Positions 23,032 through 35,996 of a stretch of 55,576 bases of DNA are shown here, one piece after another. Position 1 is the first letter of the stretch. Every line of letters starts with the position of its first letter. A model generated the notes under the pieces. The model saw only the letters and a list, made by a program, of their open reading frames with translations, was not told the DNA's origin and ran no database searches. The position numbers were made by a program, and so were the translations under genes. This stretch comes from Oscillospiraceae bacterium (lineage in GTDB: Bacteria; Bacillota; Clostridia; Oscillospirales; Acutalibacteraceae): assembly GCA_015066515.1 (NCBI GenBank), contig SVOH01000014.1, positions 1-55,576 of the forward strand, in the 5' to 3' direction.

Positions 23032-23069
23032 AATAATTGTTATAATATATAATATTGGGGGAGTTATGT

Positions 23070-23774
23070 ATGAAACCCGTTTACAAGCGTATTTTGCTAA
23101 AATTAAGTGGTGAGGTTTTAGCGGGAGAAAAGGGAACAGGCATTGACTTTGACAAGGTTAACGAGGTTTGCACAGCAATAAAGGAATGCGTTGATTTAGG
23201 AGTTGAAATCGCAATTGTCGTAGGTGGAGGTAATTTTTGGCGCGGACGTTCAAGCGGACAAATGGACCGCACCCGTGCAGACCATATGGGTATGCTTGCC
23301 ACAACCATTAACTCACTGGCTCTTTGCGATACACTCGAGCAGTTAGGTGTTACAACACGTGTTCAAACCGCTATAGAAATGCGTCAAATAGCAGAGCCGT
23401 ATATTCGAAATAAAGCGGTTCGTCACCTTGAAAAAGGTAGAGTAGTAATCTTTGGTTGCGGTACCGGTAATCCGTTCTTTTCTACCGACACAGGTGCTGC
23501 TTTGCGTGGCGCAGAAATTTGCGCTGACGTAATCTTTAAGGCTACAAATGTTGACGGTGTTTATGACAGCGACCCAAGAACAAATCCTAACGCTAAAAAG
23601 TACGATACTCTTACCCACCACGATGTTTTGGCGAAGGAACTTCATGTTATGGATTCTACTGCGGCTTCGCTTTGTATGGACAATGGTATTGATATATTGG
23701 TATTTAACCTTAACGATCCGCATAACATTGTTGATGCCGTATGTGGTAAAGCAATAGGCACTTTAGTAAAATAA
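23070..23774 (+). CDS. pyrH: UMP kinase
   Basis: 234 residues, amino-acid-kinase fold. It phosphorylates UMP to UDP with ATP. Motifs: [68 protein letters not shown] and [13 protein letters not shown]. The frame can begin at TTG 23055, but GGGGGAG directly before ATG 23070 and the family N-terminus ([15 protein letters not shown]) decide the start. It is the first gene of a long operon that runs into lipid and isoprenoid genes. Confidence 0.97.
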
Positions 23775-23792
23775 TTTTAAAGGAGAAACTTT

Positions 23793-24347
23793 ATGAACGA
23801 GCTAATTAAAAATACCGAAGAAAGAATGGGCAAGTCTATTGATGCACTTGACCGCGAATATAAATCTATAAGAGCAGGCCGCGCAAATGCTGCTGTGCTT
23901 GACAGGGTTAACGTTGATTATTACGGTGTTCCTACACCTGTTCAGCAGATGGCTGCAATTTCGGTTCCGGAGCCACGCACCCTTCTCATTACTCCGTGGG
24001 ACAAATCAACACTTAAGGATATTGAAAAGGCTATACTTACCTCTGAAATTGGTATCAATCCTCAAAACGATGGTACCTGCATTCGCCTTAATTTCCCACC
24101 TCTTACCGAGGAGCGTCGTAAGGATATTGTGAAAGATATTCGCAAAAAAGGCGAGGATGCAAAGGTTGCTGTTCGTAATCAGCGTCGTGATGCGCTTGAT
24201 AAGTTAAAGGCACTTAAGAAAAACAACGCTATTACTGAAGATGATGAATCAAACGGAGAGAAGAAAATTCAAAATCTTACCGACAAGTTCTGCAAGGAAA
24301 TTGATGAACTTGCAAACGTAAAAGAAAAAGAGATAATGGAAATTTAA
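23793..24347 (+). CDS. frr: ribosome recycling factor
   Basis: 184 residues, the usual size. RRF with EF-G splits the post-termination ribosome. Recognised by ERMGKSIDALDREYKSIRAG RAN, VDYYGVPTPVQQMA, ISVPEPRTLLITPWD, NDGTCIRLNFPPLTEERRKD and the C-terminal NLTDKFCKEIDELA. A good Shine-Dalgarno (AAAGGAG) lies eight bases before the ATG. It follows pyrH directly, the standard order. A hairpin without a T-run (24354-24377) separates it from uppS. Confidence 0.97.
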   Translation: MNELIKNTEERMGKSIDALDREYKSIRAGRANAAVLDRVNVDYYGVPTPVQQMAAISVPEPRTLLITPWDKSTLKDIEKAILTSEIGINPQNDGTCIRLNFPPLTEERRKDIVKDIRKKGEDAKVAVRNQRRDALDKLKALKKNNAITEDDESNGEKKIQNLTDKFCKEIDELANVKEKEIMEI

Positions 24348-24353
24348 GACATA

Positions 24354-24377
24354 AGAGCGGGTTTTTAAATCCGCTCT
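24354..24377 (+). other. intercistronic hairpin between frr and uppS
   Basis: AGAGCGG (24354-24360) pairs with CCGCTCT (24371-24377), with additional A/T pairs inside. No T-run follows, so it is more likely an RNA-stability or processing hairpin than a terminator. Confidence 0.5.
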
Positions 24378-24403
24378 AATTGTCACTAAAAGAGGTTTTT
24401 TAA

Positions 24404-25120
24404 ATGCCTATTTTTAAGCGTAAAGAAACAACAGAACGCATACTGCCTACACATATTGCTATCATTATGGATGGCAATGGTCGTTGGGCAAAAAAGCGTT
24501 CCTTACCTCGTACCGCGGGTCATGCGGCAGGTAGTAAAAATTTTAAGGATATTGCACGATATTGCAATAAAATAGGGCTTAAGTATCTGACTGTTTACGC
24601 CTTTTCTACTGAAAACTGGAAGCGACCAAAAGAAGAGGTCGACAACATAATGAAAATCTTTAAAGAGTATCTTGAAGACGCCAAAAATTTTAAGGATGAG
24701 AATATACAGGTTCAGTTTATAGGCGACCGAAGTGTTTTGGACCCCGAAATTCAACGTCTTATGAAGGAGTCAGAGGATGCATCGCGCGATGCTACGGGAC
24801 TTCACCTTAACATTGCTATAAATTACGGTGGGCGAGATGAAATTGTTCACGCTGTTAGAAGTCTAATAAATAGCAATGCTAAGGCAGAAGATATTACAGA
24901 GGAAGCGATTTCACAAAATCTATATACTGCCTCACAGCCTGACCCTGACTTTATTATTAGGCCTAGCGGTGAGTATAGACTTTCTAACTATCTTATATGG
25001 CAGTCGGCCTATGCTGAATATTGGTTTTCTGATATTTTGTGGCCTGATTTTAAACCAAAGGATTTAGAAAAAGCAATAGATGAATACAACCGTCGCAACC
25101 GTCGTTTCGGCGGAGTTTAG
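24404..25120 (+). CDS. uppS: undecaprenyl diphosphate synthase (isoprenyl transferase)
   Basis: 238 residues, cis-prenyltransferase family. It extends farnesyl diphosphate to the C55 carrier lipid precursor for peptidoglycan and wall polymers. Motifs: HIAIIMDGNGRWAKKRSLPR (catalytic Asp and Gly-Arg), GHAAGSKNF, LTVYAFSTENWKRP, INYGGRDEIVHA, and the C-terminal PDFIIRPSGEYRLSNYLIWQ with YAEYWF. The start follows AGAGG. Next gene cdsA begins within 11 bases of its stop. Confidence 0.96.
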   Translation: MPIFKRKETTERILPTHIAIIMDGNGRWAKKRSLPRTAGHAAGSKNFKDIARYCNKIGLKYLTVYAFSTENWKRPKEEVDNIMKIFKEYLEDAKNFKDENIQVQFIGDRSVLDPEIQRLMKESEDASRDATGLHLNIAINYGGRDEIVHAVRSLINSNAKAEDITEEAISQNLYTASQPDPDFIIRPSGEYRLSNYLIWQSAYAEYWFSDILWPDFKPKDLEKAIDEYNRRNRRFGGV

Positions 25121-25131
25121 GAGTGTGTTTT

Positions 25132-25986
25132 ATGAAACAACGTATTATATCAGGCGTCGTTATGGGCGGCATAGTGGCACTTGTTCTTGTGTTGGGGCTT
25201 TGGGTTAAAAGTGTTATTCTAACTACTTTTGTGGCACTTATAGCGGCACTTGGCGTGTTTGAATTGGTGGGCAATGCCGCAAAAATCGATAATATTGTTT
25301 TTAGAATTGTTTCGGCTGTGTATACGGTAATAATGGTGTTTTTGTTTTGTGGTATGAATGAAAATCTCTACAAACTTAATCTTACCAATTATGAATATTT
25401 TGAAATAAGCTCGTTTGTATGGGCAATAATTGTGTCTGTTGTGTATATAATAGCGACAGCAATTTTAATACTTGTAAAGCAAGCAGAGATGGACCTTGCA
25501 AAAATTACTGTGCTTTGCGGTATGCCAATACTTTATGCCTATGCTTTTTCAACTATATCGACTATTATAATTGCTACGGGTGGAATATACTATTTATTGT
25601 TGGTACTTAACTTTGCCTGTGTTTGCGATATGGGGGCTTATTTTGTTGGAGTTAGCTTGGGCAAGACAAAGCTTTGTCCTGAAATTAGTCCTAAAAAGAC
25701 GGTAGAAGGAGCTTTAGGCGGTATTATTTCGAGCGTTATTGTATCGCTTGTAATAACACTTTGCTTTAGCAAGTTTAATAAAATATTACCGGTTATGTTG
25801 CTCACCGTTCCACTTTGTGCTGTTGGTATGGCCGGTGATTTGTTTGCGTCAATTATTAAGCGTAAGGTAGGTATAAAAGATTACGGTAATCTAATTCCGG
25901 GTCACGGCGGAATACTTGACCGTGTAGACAGTGTATTATTTATTTCTCCGCTTGTTTACTGTCTTATGCTTATAGGTGTGATTTAA
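25132..25986 (+). CDS. cdsA: phosphatidate cytidylyltransferase
   Basis: 284 residues, polytopic membrane protein with about seven or eight hydrophobic segments. It makes CDP-diacylglycerol from phosphatidic acid and CTP. The C-terminal signature is present: CDMGAYFVGVSLGKTKLCPE, SPKKTVEGALGG, AGDLFASIIKRKVGIKDYGN, LIPGHGGILDRVDS. A GTG at 25123 is in frame, but AGGAG is correctly placed for the ATG at 25132. Its stop overlaps the dxr ATG by one base (TTTAATGA region), so the genes are coupled. Confidence 0.95.
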   Translation: MKQRIISGVVMGGIVALVLVLGLWVKSVILTTFVALIAALGVFELVGNAAKIDNIVFRIVSAVYTVIMVFLFCGMNENLYKLNLTNYEYFEISSFVWAIIVSVVYIIATAILILVKQAEMDLAKITVLCGMPILYAYAFSTISTIIIATGGIYYLLLVLNFACVCDMGAYFVGVSLGKTKLCPEISPKKTVEGALGGIISSVIVSLVITLCFSKFNKILPVMLLTVPLCAVGMAGDLFASIIKRKVGIKDYGNLIPGHGGILDRVDSVLFISPLVYCLMLIGVI

Positions 25987-27125
25987 TGAAAAAACTTATT
26001 ATTTTGGGTTCTACAGGTTCTATTGGAACTCAGGTACTAGACATAATTAGAGCAAATCCCGATAAATATGAGGTTGTCGCATTGGCGGCAGGCAAAAATG
26101 CTGATTTGTTACAAAAACAGGCGAGAGAATTCAAGGTTAAGGCTGTAGCACTTTTTGATGAAAATACTGCATCAGATTTAAAAATTTGTCTTGCCGATAC
26201 TAACATAAAAGTGTTATCAGGCTCTGACGGTGTATGCGAATTAACTTCATTTGATTGTGATATAGTGCTCAATGCTATTGTTGGTATTGCGGGACTGCGT
26301 CCTACACTTGCTGCAATTGATGCTGGGCATACTATTGCACTCGCTAACAAAGAAACACTTGTAACAGGCGGCGAAATAGTAAACCGCAAGTTAAAAGATA
26401 AGGGTGTAACACTACTTCCTGTAGATAGTGAGCACTCGGCAATTTTTCAATCTCTACAAGGCGCACCGGCGGGTAGTCTTAAAAAGATTTTGCTTACTGC
26501 ATCGGGCGGTCCGTTTTTTGGTAAAACGCGTAAAGAACTCCAAAATGTTACCGTAAAAGAAGCACTGGCGCATCCAAATTGGTCGATGGGAGCTAAAATC
26601 ACCATAGATAGCGCAAGTCTTATGAACAAGGGTCTTGAAGTTATAGAAGCGGTGCATTTGTTTGGTGTTCCGGCATCACAAATTGAGGTTTTAGTTCATA
26701 GACAAAGCATATTGCACTCGGCAGTAGAGCTTTCCGACGGCGCAGTTATAGCCCAACTTGGCACACCCGATATGAAGTTGCCTATACAATATGCGCTGAC
26801 ATATCCCGAGCGTGATATGTGTTTTGAAAGTCTTGATTTGTTTAAAGTGGGTGCACTCACATTTGAACGACCCGATTACGAAACATTTCGTTTGTTGCCA
26901 TTGTGTATAGAGGCAATAAATCGCGGTGGACTTTACCCAACCGCCATTAACGGTGCTAATGAGGAATCGGTTAAATTGTTCTTAGAGGGTAGAATTAAAT
27001 TTTTACAAATAGCAGAGCTTAATGAAAAGGCTATGAATATGTGCGAGAATAAAAAAGATTTTACAGTTGATGACATTTTTGCGGCAGATAAAGCTGCACG
27101 ACAAATTGTAAGAGAGGCTGTGTGA
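25986..27125 (+). CDS. dxr: 1-deoxy-D-xylulose 5-phosphate reductoisomerase
   Basis: 379 residues. It catalyses the first committed step of the MEP isoprenoid pathway, DXP to MEP, with NADPH and a divalent metal. Motifs: ILGSTGSIGTQVLDIIRANP (NADPH loop), ALANKETLVTGGEIV, LLPVDSEHSAIFQSLQG, LTASGGPFFG, HPNWSMGAKITIDSASLMNK (metal and substrate) and INGANEESVKLFLEG. It feeds uppS upstream in the same operon, with ispG further down. The length is typical. Confidence 0.97.
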   Translation: MKKLIILGSTGSIGTQVLDIIRANPDKYEVVALAAGKNADLLQKQAREFKVKAVALFDENTASDLKICLADTNIKVLSGSDGVCELTSFDCDIVLNAIVGIAGLRPTLAAIDAGHTIALANKETLVTGGEIVNRKLKDKGVTLLPVDSEHSAIFQSLQGAPAGSLKKILLTASGGPFFGKTRKELQNVTVKEALAHPNWSMGAKITIDSASLMNKGLEVIEAVHLFGVPASQIEVLVHRQSILHSAVELSDGAVIAQLGTPDMKLPIQYALTYPERDMCFESLDLFKVGALTFERPDYETFRLLPLCIEAINRGGLYPTAINGANEESVKLFLEGRIKFLQIAELNEKAMNMCENKKDFTVDDIFAADKAARQIVREAV

Positions 27126-27128
27126 GAT

Positions 27129-27809
27129 ATGAAACAAATAGATAAGAATACCGTTAAGGCTGAAAATCAGCTAAGAGATAAACACGATGTAACCTTTGAG
27201 TGTGAAAAAAACACCGGCATACGCGTAATGATGGCGGGAAATTCTATTACTTTACATGAACCCAGTCCTACAATTGGTTGGAACAATCAATGGGGTATGG
27301 CGGCATCTGCTAAAGAAAAGGACTACGTTCACGTGCTTAAAAGTCATATTCAAAGTGTAAAACCTGACGCAACCTTTTGTATTTGTCAGGCATATAAATG
27401 GGAACGCGATTTTGCAAACGGCAAACAGGCATATCCAATTTATGAGGATGCCCGTAATTTTAATGCTGATATAATTATTGTTCGCTTTATAGAAAACTGT
27501 CCTCGCAATGATTTTGACCCTGATGTTTTCAAGCGGGAATATGTTGATTTTATAAATTACCTTAACAAAAGTGGTAATGCTAAAATTGTTCTTACCACTA
27601 GCTTTTGGGAGCATACGGCAGACAGCGTTATAGCTGAAATTTCTAAAGAAAAAGGCTGGCCACTGGTTGTTCTTAATGACTTGGGCGAGCTTGACGAGAT
27701 GAAGGCACTAGGTCTTTTTGAGCATTATGGTGTTGCAAATCATCCGGGAGATCTTGGTATGAAAACAATAGCTGACAGAATCTTTGAAGAGGTTAAAAAT
27801 TTACTTTAA
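27129..27809 (+). CDS. SGNH/GDSL-like hydrolase, unusual operon member
   Basis: 226 residues, no signal peptide. A flavodoxin-like SGNH hydrolase is suggested by IRVMMAGNSITLHEPSPTIG (block I, GNS instead of GDS), DADIIIV-type strand (FNADIIIVRFIENCP), IVLTTSFWEH, and the C-terminal HPGDLGMKTIADRI supplying the catalytic His (with Asp before it at D-x-x-H spacing not fully clear). Such enzymes are esterases or deacetylases of glycans and lipids. It starts three bases after dxr and ends eight bases before rseP, so it is co-transcribed with lipid-carrier genes. Other Firmicutes have dxr directly followed by rseP. A cytoplasmic esterase acting on a cell-envelope precursor is possible, but this is inference. 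Confidence 0.7.
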   Translation: MKQIDKNTVKAENQLRDKHDVTFECEKNTGIRVMMAGNSITLHEPSPTIGWNNQWGMAASAKEKDYVHVLKSHIQSVKPDATFCICQAYKWERDFANGKQAYPIYEDARNFNADIIIVRFIENCPRNDFDPDVFKREYVDFINYLNKSGNAKIVLTTSFWEHTADSVIAEISKEKGWPLVVLNDLGELDEMKALGLFEHYGVANHPGDLGMKTIADRIFEEVKNLL

Positions 27810-27817
27810 TTTAGGTT

Positions 27818-28882
27818 GTGATTATTATTTCTGGCATTATTTCATTTATTGGTGACAATGTGTTACCATACGTTATAGCAGTATTGCTTTTTTTGATATT
27901 GATTTTTATTCACGAGTTTGGTCATTTTATTGCGGCAAAGCTATTGGGAGTTCGTGTTAATGAGTTTGCCTTAGGTATGGGACCAAAACTGCTTAAATGG
28001 GGAAAGGGAGAGACTAAATACTCCATTAATCTATTGCCTATTGGTGGTTATTGCGCTATGGAAGGCGAGGATGAATCAAGTGGCGATGAGCGCGCCTTTT
28101 GTAACAAAAAGCCTTGGCGTAGATTTCTTATCGTTGTTATGGGTGCTGTGTTTAATCTAATACTGGGTTTAATACTCGTTGGCGTTACTCTCATACCGCA
28201 AGAACGTTTTACTACTACAACGGTCGATTCTTTTCATGAAAGTTCTGTAAGTTCTGGATACGGACTTCAAGAGGGCGATAAGATTATAAGGGTGGACGGT
28301 AGAAAAATTTTTACCACCTATGATTTAAGTTATGCATTTAGTAATGTGGATGATGGCGAGATAGATATTACCGTAAAGCGTGACGGTAAAAAGGTTGAAC
28401 TTAAAAATGTAAAATTTGCAAGTGAAAAAATAGAGGGAATTAACTATTTAACAGTAGATTTTTATGTTAAAGGGCGCGAAAAAACCTTTACAAGCTTTAT
28501 TGAGCACACCTTTGATACCGCAATTTCTAACTGTGCGGTGGTTTACCGTTCACTTGCTGATTTGCTGACGGGTCGATATGGAATAAGTGCTATGTCCGGT
28601 CCTGTGGGTGTTACAGCGGCTATAGGTGATGTAGCAAAGCAAAATATTTTTGACATTATACCGATTATGGCTCTTATAACCATAAATTTAGGCCTATTCA
28701 ATTTATTACCGCTTCCAGCTCTTGATGGTGGTAGACTGATGTTTATTTTGTTTGAAATGATTTTCAGAAAGCCGGTTCCACAAAAATTTGAGGCGGCAGT
28801 ACACGCTATAGGCTTGTTATTACTTGTCGGACTTATACTAATTATTACTTTTAAAGATATCTGGATGTTGATTGCAGGGTGA
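27818..28882 (+). CDS. rseP: site-2 intramembrane metalloprotease RseP/RasP
   Basis: 354 residues starting at GTG 27818. The zinc motif HEFGH is in FIHEFGHFIAAKLLGVRVNE in the first membrane helix. A PDZ domain lies at about 130-200 (SGYGLQEGDKIIRVDGRKI), and the second metal motif (LDG) is in NLLPLPALDGGRLMF. Membrane segments lie near residues 15-40, 100-125, 280-300 and 325-345. It cleaves anti-sigma factors and remnant signal peptides in the membrane. An ECF sigma/anti-sigma pair lies 5 kb downstream, a possible but unproven client. The neighbours dxr and ispG are standard. Confidence 0.96.
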   Translation: MIIISGIISFIGDNVLPYVIAVLLFLILIFIHEFGHFIAAKLLGVRVNEFALGMGPKLLKWGKGETKYSINLLPIGGYCAMEGEDESSGDERAFCNKKPWRRFLIVVMGAVFNLILGLILVGVTLIPQERFTTTTVDSFHESSVSSGYGLQEGDKIIRVDGRKIFTTYDLSYAFSNVDDGEIDITVKRDGKKVELKNVKFASEKIEGINYLTVDFYVKGREKTFTSFIEHTFDTAISNCAVVYRSLADLLTGRYGISAMSGPVGVTAAIGDVAKQNIFDIIPIMALITINLGLFNLLPLPALDGGRLMFILFEMIFRKPVPQKFEAAVHAIGLLLLVGLILIITFKDIWMLIAG

Positions 28883-28886
28883 TTTT

Positions 28887-29942
28887 ATGTATACAAATGC
28901 TACAACTAAAAAGGTGTACGCGGGTGACGTAGCTATTGGCGGAGGCGCGCCTATTAGCATACAGTCAATGCTTTGCGCACACGCACACGATATTAACGGC
29001 AATGTGGCTCAGGCTCTTGCTTTGCAAGAGGCGGGGTGCGATATTGTTCGTGTGTCTGTACCTGATATAGAAACAATAAAAACCATTGAGGCATTAAAGA
29101 AAAACATTACCATTCCGCTTGTGGCAGATATTCATTTTGATTGGCGATTAGCTCTTGAAAGCGTTGCCGCAGGTGTTGATAAGGTTCGCATAAACCCTGG
29201 TAATATTGGTGATGAAAATAAGGTTTATGAGGTTGCACGAGTTTGTCGTGAAAAAAATATACCTATAAGAATTGGCGTAAATTCCGGTTCTTTGGAAAAA
29301 GAAATTTTATCAAAGTACGGTTCGGCCACGCCTGAAGCAATGGTTGAAAGCGGGCTGTATCATATATCACTTTTGGAAAAGTATGATTTTGATAACATTG
29401 TATTGTCACTAAAATCGTCAAACGTAAAGCGTATGTACGATGCGTATGTGTTAGCGGCCGAAAAATGTCCATACCCACTGCACCTTGGCGTTACCGAGGC
29501 AGGCACCGAAAATATGGGTGTCATAAAATCTTCGGCAGGTATTGGCGGGCTTCTTCTTCGCGGAATTGGCGATACACTTCGCATTTCGCTTACCGATGAA
29601 CCAATTAAAGAGGTTGAGGCCGCCCAAAAACTGCTTAAAGCGTTGGGAATAAGACAAGGCGGCATAAAGTTTGTATCTTGCCCTACTTGCGGCAGAACCG
29701 AGATTGATTTGATAGGTCTTGCAAAGCAAGCCGAGGAACGCTTTGCAAAAATAGATAAAAATTTAACCGTGGCCATTATGGGCTGTGTTGTGAATGGACC
29801 GGGTGAAGCCAGTGCTGCCGATATAGGAATAGCAGGCGGTAAGGACTGTGGCGTTATTTTTAAGGGCGGAAAAATACTTTATAATAAAGTGCCCGAAGAT
29901 AAACTTTTAGATTTGTTAGAACAAGAAATAAATAAAATGTGA
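28887..29942 (+). CDS. ispG: 4-hydroxy-3-methylbut-2-enyl diphosphate synthase (flavodoxin/ferredoxin)
   Basis: 351 residues. It reduces MEcPP to HMBPP in the MEP pathway, using a [4Fe-4S] cluster. The N-terminal TIM barrel shows GGGAPISIQSMLCAHAHDI, RVSVPDIETI, LVADIHFDWRLAL and KVRINPGNIGDE. The cluster cysteines are in SCPTCGRTEID and MGCVVNGPGEASAADIG. A frame opens at 28872, but AGGGTGA precedes ATG 28887. It follows rseP by four bases and precedes polC by nine. Confidence 0.97.
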   Translation: MYTNATTKKVYAGDVAIGGGAPISIQSMLCAHAHDINGNVAQALALQEAGCDIVRVSVPDIETIKTIEALKKNITIPLVADIHFDWRLALESVAAGVDKVRINPGNIGDENKVYEVARVCREKNIPIRIGVNSGSLEKEILSKYGSATPEAMVESGLYHISLLEKYDFDNIVLSLKSSNVKRMYDAYVLAAEKCPYPLHLGVTEAGTENMGVIKSSAGIGGLLLRGIGDTLRISLTDEPIKEVEAAQKLLKALGIRQGGIKFVSCPTCGRTEIDLIGLAKQAEERFAKIDKNLTVAIMGCVVNGPGEASAADIGIAGGKDCGVIFKGGKILYNKVPEDKLLDLLEQEINKM

Positions 29943-29951
29943 GGAATTTAA

Positions 29952-32900
29952 ATGTGCTCTTTTGAGGAGTTGTTTGCTACATATTTGAACAAAAATACAG
30001 TCGAAATATTTAGCGGTGTTAACGTATACGAATGTAAACTTAATAGCGATACACGTAGTCTTGATTTTAAACTGTTTAGTAAAAATTATATAACGCTCGC
30101 AAGTGTTAACCTTTTAAAAGAAGAAATCAAGCATGCGCTACAGCTTGAAAGTGTAGCGGTAGAATGTACTTTTCCAAGTGAGGTTTTTAACGTTGATGCT
30201 GCGGCAGATATTGTTGCTGAAATACGCACTAAAAATATAATATTTAATGGTTTTTTCAATGAGGCTCAATATTCACTTGATGGGAATAATTTAAAAATAA
30301 CTTTAAAATACGGCGGCTACAACACAATTAAGGACGGTAACTTTGAAAAACTGTTTAAAACACTTGTTCAGAGCCGTTTTGGTTTAAAAACAGCTATTGA
30401 AGTATCCTTTGATGGTGTGCTGGAGGATGCGCCTATCGAACTGCCCGAACCAGTTATTGTGCATAGTGCACCCGAAAAGAAAAAATCAGAGCCCAAAGAC
30501 GAAGAAAACGAAAAGAAATATGACTACAAGCCAAAGGACGGCTTGCCTGTATATCTTGAAAGCGCAAAGCTGTTTTACGGTAGAAAAATAGATACCAATG
30601 TAAAAAAATTAACATCTGTTATGTTGCCGCAAAACGATGGTGAAAGTGTATATGTAAGCGCGTGGGGCGAGGTGTTTGGACTTGAAAGCAAGGTGCTCGA
30701 TACCAAACGCGGCGGCAAGATGGTAAAAATTAAGTTTTACTTTAGTGACACCACAAATTCATTTGCAGCATCGGTTACAAAGTTTTTTGATGCTAAATAC
30801 ACCAACAATCTAGATCAGGCGGCAAGTGAATTCTTAAACTCAATGTCTGCACTTAAAAATGGTGCATGTGTTGTTGTAAACGGTGATTATTCTTATGATA
30901 GCTGGAGTCGTGACTTTGTTCTTGATGTTAAGGCGCTGGCTACCATAAAGAAATATGAAGAAACCGACGATTTTGACGGTCAAAAGCGCGTTGAATTGCA
31001 TTGTCATACTAATATGTCGGCAAAAGACGCCGTTGCAAGTGCGGGTGACATTATAAACCGTGCATACAAATGGGGCCACAAGGCTGTTGCCATTACCGAC
31101 CACGGTGTTGTACAGGCGTATCCGGCAGTGGCTGAGGCGGTTGGAAAAATCCGCAAGGGTGGCGGCGAATTTAAAGCAATTTACGGCGTAGAAAATTATT
31201 TTATTGATGATACGCGTTTTGATATTTCAAATCTTACCAACAAAGAAATTGCAAAGCTACGTAATCACCAAATTTTGCTTGTTAAGGATTTAGTAGGTCT
31301 TAAAAATTTATATCAGCTTATATCTGAGGCGCATCTTCATAACTTTTACGGCAGACCTATTATTTTGCGCTCACAGTTAGATGCTCATCGCGAGGGACTG
31401 ATTGTGGGCTCTGCTTGTGAGCAGGGCGAATTGTACCGCGCAATAATTGACGGCAAGGACGAAAAAACACTTTTAGAAATTGCCGATTATTATGATTATC
31501 TTGAAATACAACCACTTGGTAACAACGAGTTCATGGTGCGTGATAGCGCTAATCCTGATAAGGTCGATAAAAAGGGGAACGTTACACCAAACCGCTTTAA
31601 GCACGTTACAAGTATTGAGGTTGTAAAGGAATTTAACCGCAAGGTTGTAGAAATTGCTGACAAGTTAGGCAAGATGGTTGTAGCAACGGGTGACGTACAC
31701 TTCCTTAAAAAGCAAGATGGTATTATCCGCCAGATAGTTATGGCGGGACAGGGCTTTGACGATATTGAAAATCAGGCACCGCTTTACTTTAAATCTACTA
31801 CCGAAATGCTTGAAGACTTTTCATATTTTGGTGATCGTGTATACGAGTTTGTAGTAGAAAATCCAAACAAAATAGCACAAATGGTATCGGACGATGTTAT
31901 CCCTGTGCCAAAGGGCAACTATCCGCCTGTTATTGAAGGCTCGGACGATTTGCTTCGCGAGATATGTTGGCGCAATGCCAAAGCTATGTATGGCGACCCT
32001 GTGCCCGAAATAGTTGAAAAGCGTCTAAACAAGGAACTTAACTCAATTATTAATAACGGCTTCTCTATAATGTATATATCGGCGCAAAAGCTTGTGGCCA
32101 AGAGCGAAGAACTCGGCTACTATGTTGGTTCGCGTGGTTCGGTAGGCTCGTCCTTTGTTGCAACAATGGCAGGTATATCCGAGGTTAACCCATTAGCACC
32201 TCACTATGTATGTCCTACCTGTCAGTACAGCGAATTCTTTACCGACGGTTCTGTGGGTTCGGGTTTTGACCTACCCGAAAAGAACTGTCCGCATTGCAAT
32301 ACTCCACTTAACCGCAACGGTCACGATATACCATTTGAAACCTTCTTGGGCTTTAAGGGTGACAAGGTGCCGGATATTGACCTTAACTTCTCAGATGAAG
32401 TGCAAAACACAATTCAAGAATATACCAAAACACTCTTTGGTGCTGAAAACGTTTATAAGGCAGGTACAATCTCTACAATAGCCGAAAAAACCGCATTTGG
32501 TTTTGCTAAAGCCTATGCCGAAAAAATGAACGTAGTACTCTCTCAGCCCGAGCTTAATCGCTTGGCAAGTATGGTAGAGGGCTCAAAGGTTAAAACCACT
32601 ACCGGTCAGCACCCCGCAGGTATGATTATTGTGCCACAGGGTATGACAATTTACGATTTTTGCCCAGTGCAGCATCCTGCCGACGATACTGAGAGCGACA
32701 TTATTACAACCCACTTTGATTTCCACTCTATTCACGATACAATTCTCAAGCTTGATGAACTCGGCCACGTGGTGCCTACTACATATAAATATCTTACCGA
32801 GTATTCGGGTATTGACGTAAACGATGTATCTATGAGCGACCCCAAGGTTTATAGCCTGTTTACCTCGACCGAGGCTTTGGGTGTAACACCCGAAGATATT

Positions 32901-33821
32901 GAGTCAAACACAGGCACATTTTGCTTGCCCGAATTTGGCACCTCGTTTGTACGCGGAATGCTTGTTGACTGTAAACCAAAGAATTTCTCTGACCTACTTC
33001 AGATATCGGGTCTTTCACACGGTACCGATGTTTATCTTGGTAATGCAAAGGACCTAATTGATAACGGCACCTGTACCATTTCTGAGGTTATAGGTACTCG
33101 TGATAACATAATGGTTTACCTTATACATCAGGGTATGGACGAGGGCAGAGCCTTTAAGATTACCGAAACGGTGCGTAAAGGCTTGGTTGCTAAAGGTAAG
33201 GTGTCTAAAGAAGAATGGGGACAAATGGAAGAAGATATGCGAGCAGTTGGCGTGCCCGAGTGGTACATAGGCTCTTGCTATAAGATTAAGTATATGTTCC
33301 CTAAGGCCCATGCGGCAGCCTACGTTATCTCGGCTATTAAACTTGGTTGGTATAAGGTATATAGACCGCTCGAATTTTACTGTGCCTACTTTACCGCTCG
33401 TCCTGAGGACGTTGACGTGCCCACCGTTATTAAGGGTAGGGGCGCCGTGCTTGCCAAAATGAACGAGATTAAGGCAAAGGGTAAAGAGGCTACTAAAAAA
33501 GAGCTTGATACCTATGACGTATTGCTTATAATCAACGAAATGATGGCGAGAGGTATCGAGATACTGCCTATTGATATCAAGCATTCCCACGCTATGAAGT
33601 TCTTGCCCGAAAACGGCAAGATGCGTCTACCTTTCGGCGCGCTTTCGGGCGTTGGTGAAAAGGCGGCATACTCGATTTACGAAGCCGCACAAAAGGGCGA
33701 TTTTGTATCACGCGAGGATTTTGCCGTTGAAGCAGGTGTTTCAAAAACAATTATCCAGAATCTTGCAGACCTTGGCGCTATGGATGAATTACCCGACACA
33801 AATCAAATGTCGTTGTTTTAA
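29952..33821 (+). CDS. polC: DNA polymerase III alpha subunit, PolC type, lacking the inserted exonuclease domain
   Basis: 1289 residues, against about 1430-1465 for typical PolC. Domains: N-terminal domain (about 1-170), OB domain (about 200-335), PHP (from VELHCHTNMSAKDAV at about 348), then the PolC zinc module with CPTC and CPHC, the palm with KVPDIDLNFS, fingers with TTGQHPAGMIIVPQG, and a C-terminal tail ending in NQMSLF (a beta-clamp-binding-like end). Canonical PolC has a DnaQ-type exonuclease of about 170 residues inserted in PHP after the YGLE strand. Here YGVENYFIDD (about 411-420) is joined by about 20 residues (31200-31262) to the region LLVKDLVGLKNLYQLISEAH. No DVETTG, HNA or HRA-type exonuclease motif exists. 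PHP metal residues HCH, ITDH and GDVH remain. Proofreading would have to come from another protein. Confidence 0.93.
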   Translation: MCSFEELFATYLNKNTVEIFSGVNVYECKLNSDTRSLDFKLFSKNYITLASVNLLKEEIKHALQLESVAVECTFPSEVFNVDAAADIVAEIRTKNIIFNGFFNEAQYSLDGNNLKITLKYGGYNTIKDGNFEKLFKTLVQSRFGLKTAIEVSFDGVLEDAPIELPEPVIVHSAPEKKKSEPKDEENEKKYDYKPKDGLPVYLESAKLFYGRKIDTNVKKLTSVMLPQNDGESVYVSAWGEVFGLESKVLDTKRGGKMVKIKFYFSDTTNSFAASVTKFFDAKYTNNLDQAASEFLNSMSALKNGACVVVNGDYSYDSWSRDFVLDVKALATIKKYEETDDFDGQKRVELHCHTNMSAKDAVASAGDIINRAYKWGHKAVAITDHGVVQAYPAVAEAVGKIRKGGGEFKAIYGVENYFIDDTRFDISNLTNKEIAKLRNHQILLVKDLVGLKNLYQLISEAHLHNFYGRPIILRSQLDAHREGLIVGSACEQGELYRAIIDGKDEKTLLEIADYYDYLEIQPLGNNEFMVRDSANPDKVDKKGNVTPNRFKHVTSIEVVKEFNRKVVEIADKLGKMVVATGDVHFLKKQDGIIRQIVMAGQGFDDIENQAPLYFKSTTEMLEDFSYFGDRVYEFVVENPNKIAQMVSDDVIPVPKGNYPPVIEGSDDLLREICWRNAKAMYGDPVPEIVEKRLNKELNSIINNGFSIMYISAQKLVAKSEELGYYVGSRGSVGSSFVATMAGISEVNPLAPHYVCPTCQYSEFFTDGSVGSGFDLPEKNCPHCNTPLNRNGHDIPFETFLGFKGDKVPDIDLNFSDEVQNTIQEYTKTLFGAENVYKAGTISTIAEKTAFGFAKAYAEKMNVVLSQPELNRLASMVEGSKVKTTTGQHPAGMIIVPQGMTIYDFCPVQHPADDTESDIITTHFDFHSIHDTILKLDELGHVVPTTYKYLTEYSGIDVNDVSMSDPKVYSLFTSTEALGVTPEDIESNTGTFCLPEFGTSFVRGMLVDCKPKNFSDLLQISGLSHGTDVYLGNAKDLIDNGTCTISEVIGTRDNIMVYLIHQGMDEGRAFKITETVRKGLVAKGKVSKEEWGQMEEDMRAVGVPEWYIGSCYKIKYMFPKAHAAAYVISAIKLGWYKVYRPLEFYCAYFTARPEDVDVPTVIKGRGAVLAKMNEIKAKGKEATKKELDTYDVLLIINEMMARGIEILPIDIKHSHAMKFLPENGKMRLPFGALSGVGEKAAYSIYEAAQKGDFVSREDFAVEAGVSKTIIQNLADLGAMDELPDTNQMSLF

Positions 33822-33864: not shown

Positions 33865-35379
33865 TTATGCTGGGGGTTTAGGATTATTGATTATATCACC
33901 AATATCTATATCGTTATTATTATCGGTATTATTATGACTATTGTGTTTGTTTATAAAATATTCTTCGTACCCCTCAACCTCTACAGCTGGGACATAGGTT
34001 TTTGCATATATTATATTGCCATTTTCGGCAGTGCCTAAGTTTTTATAGAAGGCATAATAGGGTAACGTTAAATCACCGACATTAATGCCGCCCTTGTATT
34101 CAAAAGATACATAGTCGTAATTGGTAAAGTCAATGGGCGATTGTTCGTCTTGACATGCCGGACAGCCCCGATATGCTAAAACATAACCTTTGTTTAAGTA
34201 TTCCTTGGCTTTTTCTAACGGTAATATATTCTTTTGTGCTATAGGTTTTGAATAAGAACCATTTTCGGTGCGGAACGACCAATACCAAATATTGCTTGCG
34301 TAATATAAATCATTCGACTCGTTTTCATAATCATTAAATGCAATTGAAATATAATCGGTATGTGGTCCATCACCTTGTAATTTGTTTAAGGGATGTTTTT
34401 CTGCATTGTATAAATAAACGATGTAGTCATCGTAAACATTGTCGAAATGACGAACTACCTTTACGTCATCGAACGAAACTTTAAATAAATCAAAGAGTTT
34501 TATTTTTAAATTTGAAAGCGAATTGATGATTTCTGCATCGCTTTGATTTTTTTGTATATAAAAGGTTTCGTTGTCGAGGGTTAATGGATTCTTAAAATTA
34601 GAAAAATTAACAGTATTTCTATTAAGTGCATTTGTTACGCCCATACTTATTCCGTAATAATCATTGTTTGTAAATTTATCCTCTATATTAATGTGTGAAG
34701 AATATGAATGTACAATATACTCGGGCGTGTCTATATTTAGAAACTTTGCAATTTTTGGAAAGAATTCATCGACAAGAGAGAGAGCTTCTTGCTGATTAAT
34801 TTGTTTTTCATAATACCCTTTATATATTGTTATATATTTATCGTTAGGAATAGGATTGATATATAAATACTTTTCGTTTGGAGAAAATACTCTTTCATAG
34901 GAAATGGTTGAACCATTTGAATCTGGAGCATTTGGATTTAAAAAATACAAATCATCAATCGTAATAGTTATTTTGTCAGAATCTGTGCCGGCTGAGATAT
35001 GACCGCTTGACCCCGCTGCGTTGCTTATGCCTAAGCTTTTGTCACTGCTGTCGGGATTATTGTTTGTGCTTTGCATCTCGTTTTTATGCTGTTCATTTTT
35101 GGCGGGTTCACTTTGTGTCTGTTCGGTTGAAGATTCTCCGTTTATAATTTCGGTTATAATCTCTGTATCATCCGATTCGGTGAATTTGTTATCGTTTAAA
35201 TCGCTTATTACCTTAGTTGACGGTATCGCTACTAAAACTGCAGCGACACAAGCGGCGATGGTACTAATTGCAACCTTTTTTCGTCGGGCGGCGATTTTGA
35301 TTTCAGGGGATTTGGCTTCGGCTATAAGCTCGTCGTCGATAGCGTCAAACGCATTTTGAAATAGGTTATTACCGTTCAT
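33865..35379 (-). CDS. membrane-anchored anti-sigma-factor-like protein
   Basis: 504 residues. A short cytoplasmic N-terminus (LFQNAFDAIDDELIAEAKSP ... KIAARRKKV) is followed by one membrane helix (VAISTIAACVAAVLVAIPS, about 36-54). A Ser/Thr/Asn/Glu-rich linker (about 65-125) leads to an extracellular domain of about 350 residues, with a GCPACQDE cysteine pair and an Asn/Asp-rich tail. This topology, together with the four-base overlap with the sigma gene in front, is typical of ECF anti-sigma factors in Clostridia. The cytoplasmic part has no clear zinc-binding HCC motif. I do not recognise the extracellular domain. A signal sensed outside is inference. Confidence 0.8.
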   Translation of the reverse strand: MNGNNLFQNAFDAIDDELIAEAKSPEIKIAARRKKVAISTIAACVAAVLVAIPSTKVISDLNDNKFTESDDTEIITEIINGESSTEQTQSEPAKNEQHKNEMQSTNNNPDSSDKSLGISNAAGSSGHISAGTDSDKITITIDDLYFLNPNAPDSNGSTISYERVFSPNEKYLYINPIPNDKYITIYKGYYEKQINQQEALSLVDEFFPKIAKFLNIDTPEYIVHSYSSHINIEDKFTNNDYYGISMGVTNALNRNTVNFSNFKNPLTLDNETFYIQKNQSDAEIINSLSNLKIKLFDLFKVSFDDVKVVRHFDNVYDDYIVYLYNAEKHPLNKLQGDGPHTDYISIAFNDYENESNDLYYASNIWYWSFRTENGSYSKPIAQKNILPLEKAKEYLNKGYVLAYRGCPACQDEQSPIDFTNYDYVSFEYKGGINVGDLTLPYYAFYKNLGTAENGNIIYAKTYVPAVEVEGYEEYFINKHNSHNNTDNNNDIDIGDIINNPKPPA

Positions 35380-35927
35380 ATAAACACCTCCTGCTTTTCA
35401 AGGTGGTCAAGCAATTTTTGCCGTGTACGCAATAATATCATTTTGACCTTGCTTTGTGTAAATCCAAATTGACGGGATATATCCTTTATGGAGTCGCAGT
35501 ACCAATAGTGACAAATAAACACCTGTCGGTCGCGCGTGGGTAATTCACGTAAAAAGGCGTTTAAAATCTCGGTGATTTCAAGCTCGGATATAGCGTTTGT
35601 GTTGTCGGGTATAAGGTTGGCAAGTTCGTCGATAGGCAATGATTGATTGCCGCCGCCACGCTTTTGCGCAGTATTAGCCTTTAACTTTTTAAATGAGAGA
35701 TTACGTGTAATTCGGCTTAAAAAGGCGGAAAGCACCTGTGGCTTTGTGGGCGGTATTTGGTCCCACGCCGCCAAATATGTATCGCTTTCACATTCTTCGG
35801 CATCCTCGTGGGTCTTTAAAATATTGTAAGAAACCGAATATAGAAGTTTACCGTATTTTTGTTTGGTCTCATTTATCGCAGAGTTATCGCGCGCGAAATA
35901 CAGCTCTATTATTCTGCTGTCATCCAT
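35376..35927 (-). CDS. ECF-type RNA polymerase sigma factor
   Basis: 183 residues. Region 2 is recognisable (YGKLLYSVSYNILKTHEDAE ECESDTYLAAWDQIPP), as is region 4 with a helix-turn-helix (LRELPTRDRQVFICHYWYCD, IKDISRQFGFTQSKVKMILL RTRQKL). Regions 1.1 and 3 are absent, as expected for the ECF group. The frame is open from 35957, but AAAGGGGTG on the minus strand just before 35927 fixes the start MDDSRIIELYF. It overlaps the anti-sigma-like gene by four bases. It is preceded by a sigma-A-type promoter and a 14-bp palindrome. Confidence 0.92.
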   Translation of the reverse strand: MDDSRIIELYFARDNSAINETKQKYGKLLYSVSYNILKTHEDAEECESDTYLAAWDQIPPTKPQVLSAFLSRITRNLSFKKLKANTAQKRGGGNQSLPIDELANLIPDNTNAISELEITEILNAFLRELPTRDRQVFICHYWYCDSIKDISRQFGFTQSKVKMILLRTRQKLLDHLEKQEVFI

Positions 35928-35996
35928 AAAATTCACCCCTTTACTTAACAAGTACACTTTTAAAAGCAGTCGGTCACAAATTCTTTATACATTTTA

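Follow-up and report, generated by a model that had tools for sequence, protein, structure and literature searches.

A clostridial PolC replicase that lacks the DnaQ-type exonuclease retains a complete set of PHP metal ligands

Results

The polC locus and the missing exonuclease

The stretch of DNA analysed here, referred to as the window, comprises positions 1 to 55,576 of contig SVOH01000014.1 from an Oscillospiraceae bacterium (assembly GCA_015066515.1, G000 herein), and encodes on its forward strand polC, the DNA polymerase III alpha subunit of PolC type (29952..33821). The 1289-aa product is without the DnaQ-type exonuclease insert. A domain scan placed ispG/gcpE directly upstream (28872..29942, forward strand), and ahead of it a forward-strand run of an AA-kinase, frr, uppS, cdsA, dxr and an M50 protease (23055..28882), the scan covering this run apart from the ORF at 27129-27809. 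We take the AA-kinase to be pyrH-like and the protease to be rseP-like. A pyrH-like/frr/uppS/cdsA/dxr/rseP-like run is the usual clostridial neighbourhood of polC.

The protein scored above both NCBIfam equivalog cut-offs (TIGR01405, 1255.9 versus 1043.45 bits; PRK00448, 1371.9 versus 873 bits). At E ≤ 10, Pfam identified a PHP domain at residues 348-514 along with polymerase, finger and HhH domains, and two weak matches at the N-terminus besides these. Residues 292-1289 align to 3F2B, a structure of Geobacillus kaustophilus PolC. Using this alignment and a count of ligands, the PHP domain region was assigned to residues about 345-640 (30984..31871, forward strand) with nine metal ligands, while Pfam and the same alignment placed the polymerase core, HhH and a C-terminal QMSLF, presumably the clamp-binding motif, at 31950..33818 on the same strand. 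The original prediction that the remainder of the enzyme is intact was thus borne out for the polymerase parts and the PHP ligands.

Our analysis also confirmed the central claim of that prediction, that the DnaQ-type exonuclease is gone from this PolC. Pfam detected neither RNase_T nor any other exonuclease family in the protein even at E 10, and the PRK00448 profile aligned over positions 19-420 and 610-1444, skipping the exonuclease portion between them. The PHP ligands E414 and H439 are separated by 24 residues (codons at 31194..31265, forward strand) at what is the exonuclease site in active relatives, compared with 199-237 residues in 88 PolCs with an active exonuclease and 10-39 in 68 with an excised one. 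The two flanks had been described as joined directly; instead, a short loop is kept, much like the short linker found at the same place in 3F2B, from which the exonuclease is also absent. All exonuclease motifs had been said to be missing from the 1289 residues, and this held for DxETTG, HNA and HxAxxD, but the looser HxxxD occurs three times (908, 925 and 1059), each within the polymerase part. Bacillus subtilis PolC, the orthologous replicase, differs from the window protein in having the internal exonuclease. Natural Geobacillus PolC, unlike the 3F2B structure, carries the domain as well (PMC5636811).

A DnaQ-type exonuclease inserted in the PHP domain is a hallmark of PolC, although not a strict requirement, since 6% of PolCs are without it, nearly all of them from Clostridia and Negativicutes (Timinskas and Venclovas, NAR 2013, PMC3919608). 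The exonuclease-less share rises to 16% within PolC+DnaE1 systems (PMC3919608). The original prediction implied that a clostridial PolC of this kind was new, which the 2013 publication contradicts: the window protein is another case of the published architecture, with the insert absent, a DnaE-type partner and a conserved PHP metal site, and no difference from it was found in the consulted parts of that paper. The same parts held no counts of losses or of decayed domains. What this analysis adds is the spread of the loss over the genus and its nearest genera, its recurrence, the intact PHP site in all 217 PolCs counted, and the existence of genomes without a match to PF00929.

The exonuclease-less form is not an assembly artefact

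Assembly deletion was ruled out as the cause by the same break across the window's genus and in four public MAG PolCs, which share the exonuclease-less form and are 87-92% identical over the whole protein. In at least 52 of 61 same-genus genomes, an over-cut-off PolC match starts at profile position 598-614, the break seen in the window. Among the matches listed for the other nine, five genomes had PolC in pieces only and four (G003, G012, G028 and G060) had nothing above DnaE-level matches. No PolC spanning the exonuclease was found in the genus among the matches listed, the one exception being a chimera at a contig end of G000. A ruminant gut site was given for 16 of 21 related public loci.

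The possibility of a second full-length PolC in G000, raised beforehand in the original prediction, was rejected, as the assembly holds one complete PolC and its sole other piece, at the C29 contig end, covers profile positions 403-766. There, a phage terminase large subunit (PF04466) is in frame with a PolC fragment that contains exonuclease motifs and runs off the contig end (L001:724-2562). The remainder of this fusion was not found in the G000 assembly, and among the PolC domains compared its exonuclease part reaches at most 58% identity, with the closest ones coming from other families. A chimeric assembly of the contig end, or contamination, is the probable origin. Terminase-internal and junction patterns had no match in viral contigs, a result that carries no weight either way. 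Incomplete additional PolC-like ORFs (about 740-920 aa) without the N-terminal part were seen at L132, L133, G030:C2, G056:C12 and G019:C139, and possibly derive from phages or decayed copies.

Exonuclease loss recurs across Clostridia

Loss of the exonuclease is common to the window's genus and the nearest genera. Among 120 genomes of the window's family (f1), the PolC match extends across the exonuclease in 68 (the 67 used for the genome-size comparison below plus G081, cut by a contig end), the full catalytic set DEDHD having been read in 30 of these (L065-L094) and the others being classed as active by profile span only. The break was found in 38 (36 used for the genome-size comparison, G000 and G052), a decayed insert in two (G073 and G174), fragments in four (G074, G128, G152 and G177) and no PolC-level match in eight. 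Excision also occurs in families f2, f16, f22, f26, f29, f31, f63 and f64, and both states were found within single genera, g12 (L082 and L103) and g288.

A quick IQ-TREE phylogeny of PolC itself was built from 187 PolC cores with the exonuclease columns unused. Active versus not active required at least 21 changes of state, 15 of them forced by well-supported branches, counts that on a PolC tree cannot tell loss from regain or transfer. Counted separately, the excised state needs 16 changes (12 forced) and the decayed state five (4 forced); an earlier 139-row tree gave 16 changes, 13 of them forced. Given the wide occurrence of the active form across the class, and the decayed intermediates, we infer that loss is the natural direction of change. 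It followed two routes among the 187 rows: excision in 68, and decay of the active site in 31 from seven genera. In the 139-row tree, the excision in the window is common to a clade of 14 rows (support 98), and the sister row of this clade, L079, has the exonuclease.

The 187-row set and a 169-row set used for the PHP signature consist of ORFs of at least 850 aa with strong PolC similarity, and 139 of the 187 are also in the 169. Left out were near-identical copies (L044, L045, L047, L048, L051, L052, L054 and L061), two broken or odd rows (L058 and L059, whose truncated N-termini left gaps in the ligand columns), fragments and duplicate copies (L001, L003-L005, L012, L013, L132 and L133) and, likewise, DnaE loci; the 187-row set is also without most own-genus rows. 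Earlier motif-filtered passes comprised 60, 106 and 151 rows.

Decayed inserts are related to the active exonuclease

Inserts were called decayed if longer than 100 residues and without the full D-E-D-H-D set in one MAFFT alignment. The 31 such rows have inserts of 179-347 residues, with no catalytic letter left in 8, one in 16, two in 4 and three in 3, although single letters shift with the alignment. They belong to g14 of the window's family (2 rows; L129 and L130), to g217 (14; L174-L176, L263-L267 and L270-L275) and g292 (1; L268) of f54, and to g272 (7), g275 (3), g288 (1) and g295 (3) of f73 (L244, L245, L248, L249, L251, L252, L254 and L256-L262). Genus g288 contains both active (L238 and L242) and decayed (L262) forms.

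Against 88 active domains, profile comparison gave 99.8% for the g288 insert, 99.7% for g272, 98.7% for g14, 97.5% for g217, 95.7% for g275, 90.8% for g292 and 69.8% for g295, the last reaching 96.3% against the g272 insert, while three control segments of the same proteins gave 0.2-0.3%. When five decayed inserts were scanned singly, PF00929 matched the one from g288 (1.8e-9), RNase_H_2 weakly matched another (E 0.018), one had a chance-level match to another family and two had no match. The idea that the f54 insert is a new domain was rejected: a three-sequence profile matched the active domains weakly (4.5%, E 0.009; controls E 0.07-0.69), and a 14-sequence one matched them clearly (97.5%, E 7e-12). 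By eye, the g217 insert (288-347 residues) shows good conservation from species to species, as though retained as a structural element. No description of decayed-exonuclease PolCs was found in the open-access literature or in the consulted parts of the two Timinskas papers, and these PolCs of relatives seem undescribed.

The PHP metal site is intact in all PolCs counted

The window protein has nine of nine PHP ligands (H350, H352, D359, H384, E414, H439, C489, D581 and H583). The corresponding signature, HHDHEHCDH, was intact in 169 of 169 PolCs (98 excised, 66 active and 5 decayed) and in 48 of 48 further PolCs, a total of 217 of 217. HHDHEH[C/H]DH was scored as an active PHP by Timinskas 2026 (PMC12926913). 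In Mycobacterium tuberculosis DnaE1, nine residues (5 H, 3 D/E and 1 C) hold three metals, and D23 and D226 mutants are inactive (PMC5636811). This enzyme (5LEW) and the window protein are both C-family replicases with a nine-ligand site of the same composition; they differ in that one is a DnaE1 whose activity was tested and the other a PolC known from its sequence. Geobacillus PolC, in which one PHP ligand is mutated, has no exonuclease activity (PMC5636811). The alignment with 3F2B and with the PolC of PDB 9qpc, which covers codons D581-V-H583 (31692..31700, forward strand), shows N in both proteins in place of D581 of the window.

As the signature is equally intact in exonuclease-bearing and exonuclease-less clostridial PolCs, its conservation does not show proofreading, nor does it separate the two states. 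Clostridial PolCs may have had two potential editors, and a second editor in the PHP domain may be the reason that the DnaQ site was lost so often. In the literature searched, no demonstration of PHP editing by a PolC was found; such editing has been shown for mycobacterial DnaE1.

Free DnaQ-type exonucleases

PF00929, the one family used for this search, can miss divergent DEDD nucleases and misses most decayed inserts. In G000 it matched the chimeric contig-end fragment and one intact 299-aa protein only. We take the latter to be KapD-like, a type also present in exonuclease-bearing genomes. The search covered 48 genomes in which PolC has no active exonuclease (44 excised and 4 decayed), and 12 of the 44 excised ones, 93-100% complete and sequence-checked, had no PF00929 match; all of the PF00929-negative genomes were of the excised kind. 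As a control, 37 of 37 exonuclease-bearing genomes matched, eight of them through PolC's own domain only. Free PF00929 proteins were not enriched after excision (32/44, G000 chimera counted, versus 29/37). In a further set from f54 and f73, 6 of 40 decayed-exonuclease genomes had no match, the PolC sequence having been read for 28 of the 40 and 5 of the 6, but not for G495 or 11 g217 genomes. G433, exonuclease-bearing by profile span, has a PolC without a PF00929 match.

Strong free PF00929 proteins were found in some excised-exonuclease genomes, among them all three of g122, G302 and G261, and in some decayed-exonuclease f54 genomes. Those of the three exonuclease-less g122 genomes searched (L199, L200 and L203) are small DnaQ-like exonucleases (ORFs of 176-207 aa), and none of this kind was found in two exonuclease-bearing genomes of the sister genus g132. 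An origin by relocation from the PolC of that genus was rejected, since the PolCs that they match best (40-47% identity) belong to other families.

Discussion

On balance we think it probable that an ancestor of this lineage of gut Clostridia, whose chromosomal PolC the window would encode, excised the DnaQ-type (DEDDh) 3'-5' exonuclease from the PHP-domain loop, leaving 24 residues, and that the putative PHP site, with its nine ligands kept, proofreads PolC as an intrinsic zinc-dependent 3'-5' nuclease, as in mycobacterial DnaE1. A DnaE-type polymerase and MutS accompany PolC in the same genome: G000 encodes MutS, and the polymerase at G000:C40 has the same PHP signature intact when read by eye, which suggests a DnaE1 rather than a DnaE3. 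PHP proofreading is favoured because the nine ligands are intact here and in all 217 PolCs, because the window has D where the inactive Geobacillus PolC has N, and because loss recurs and 12 of 44 excised-exonuclease genomes have no PF00929 match. Against it stand the KapD-like exonuclease of G000 and a faster PolC in the window's own clade. We extend this reading to Clostridia more tentatively: PolC proofreading could have passed repeatedly from DnaQ to PHP (15 to 21 changes) by excision or decay, with the dead inserts of 180-350 residues structural, a proposal that we find about as easy to doubt as to accept.

The original prediction offered proofreading in trans, by PHP or a DnaQ protein, or lower fidelity, and of these PHP proofreading is the one favoured by our data. 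A DnaQ-type exonuclease acting in trans may serve some lineages; for G000, where the sole intact candidate is KapD-like, it is not supported. Nor is it the general answer, given the genomes without any PF00929 match among both excised (12/44) and decayed (6/40) forms, the lack of enrichment, and g122 proteins that are not relocated PolC domains, and we regard it as improbable. Equally hard to credit is replication of lower fidelity, with PolC errors escaping both DnaQ and PHP and being left to mismatch repair and selection. The faster PolC of the window's clade, whose branch is about twice that of its exonuclease-bearing sisters (0.59 versus 0.29), is also what reduced fidelity or relaxed constraint would lead one to expect. 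Uncorrected for ancestry, excised genomes of f1 are smaller (median 1.8 Mb, n = 36, versus 2.3 Mb, n = 67, for active) and their PolC root-to-tip distances longer (0.89, n = 39, versus 0.69, n = 30), as are those of decayed over active f54 PolCs (1.19, n = 15, versus 0.99, n = 3). However, PolC branches were longer after loss in 17 of 28 clade comparisons (p = 0.34; Wilcoxon p = 0.16), which overlap in some of their reference rows and are only partly independent; branch lengths thus gave no overall effect in favour of lower fidelity. An unused PHP site would also be expected to decay, yet the signature is intact in 217 of 217 PolCs.

Somewhat less remote, although still unlikely in our judgement, is a demotion of PolC, as raised for PolC+DnaE1 systems by Timinskas (2013, PMC3919608), in which DnaE1 copies most of the chromosome and a PolC with a minor role tolerates the loss of its editor. 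In f73, decayed-exonuclease PolCs occur beside g282 and g290, whose best matches stay at DnaE level (E 1e-27 to 1e-36) in all 14 genomes. No over-cut-off PolC match was found in f8 (9/9 genomes), f25 (5/5) or f51 (2/2), and PolC-level matches are absent from 4 of 61 own-genus genomes, among the matches listed, and from 8 of 120 in the family. In f8, f25, f51, g282, g290 and these four own-genus genomes, again among the matches listed, PolC seems to be lost altogether or is missing from the assembly. Demotion is countered by the at least 55 of 61 own-genus genomes that keep a PolC over the family cut-off, by the usual locus and the intact polymerase and PHP residues of the window PolC, and by branches that are not consistently longer after loss.

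The mutation rate depends in part on which nuclease edits the replicase. A proofreading-deficient B. subtilis polC allele has been used to make hypermutators (PMC11890065). Repeated loss of the DnaQ site, an unbroken PHP site and genomes with no detectable DnaQ-family protein open PHP editing to direct test in another kind of replicase, and if PHP proofreading is correct, exonuclease-less species without a detectable DnaQ protein would be natural tests of the zinc PHP site alone. As PolC is a drug target (PMC12592400), the identity of the clostridial PolC editor may also bear on nucleotide-like inhibitors.

Beyond polC in the window, the reverse strand (33865-35957) encodes a 504-aa ORF with no Pfam match that overlaps by 4 bases the end of a same-strand sigma-70-like gene (35376-35957); the two are possibly a sigma/anti-sigma pair.
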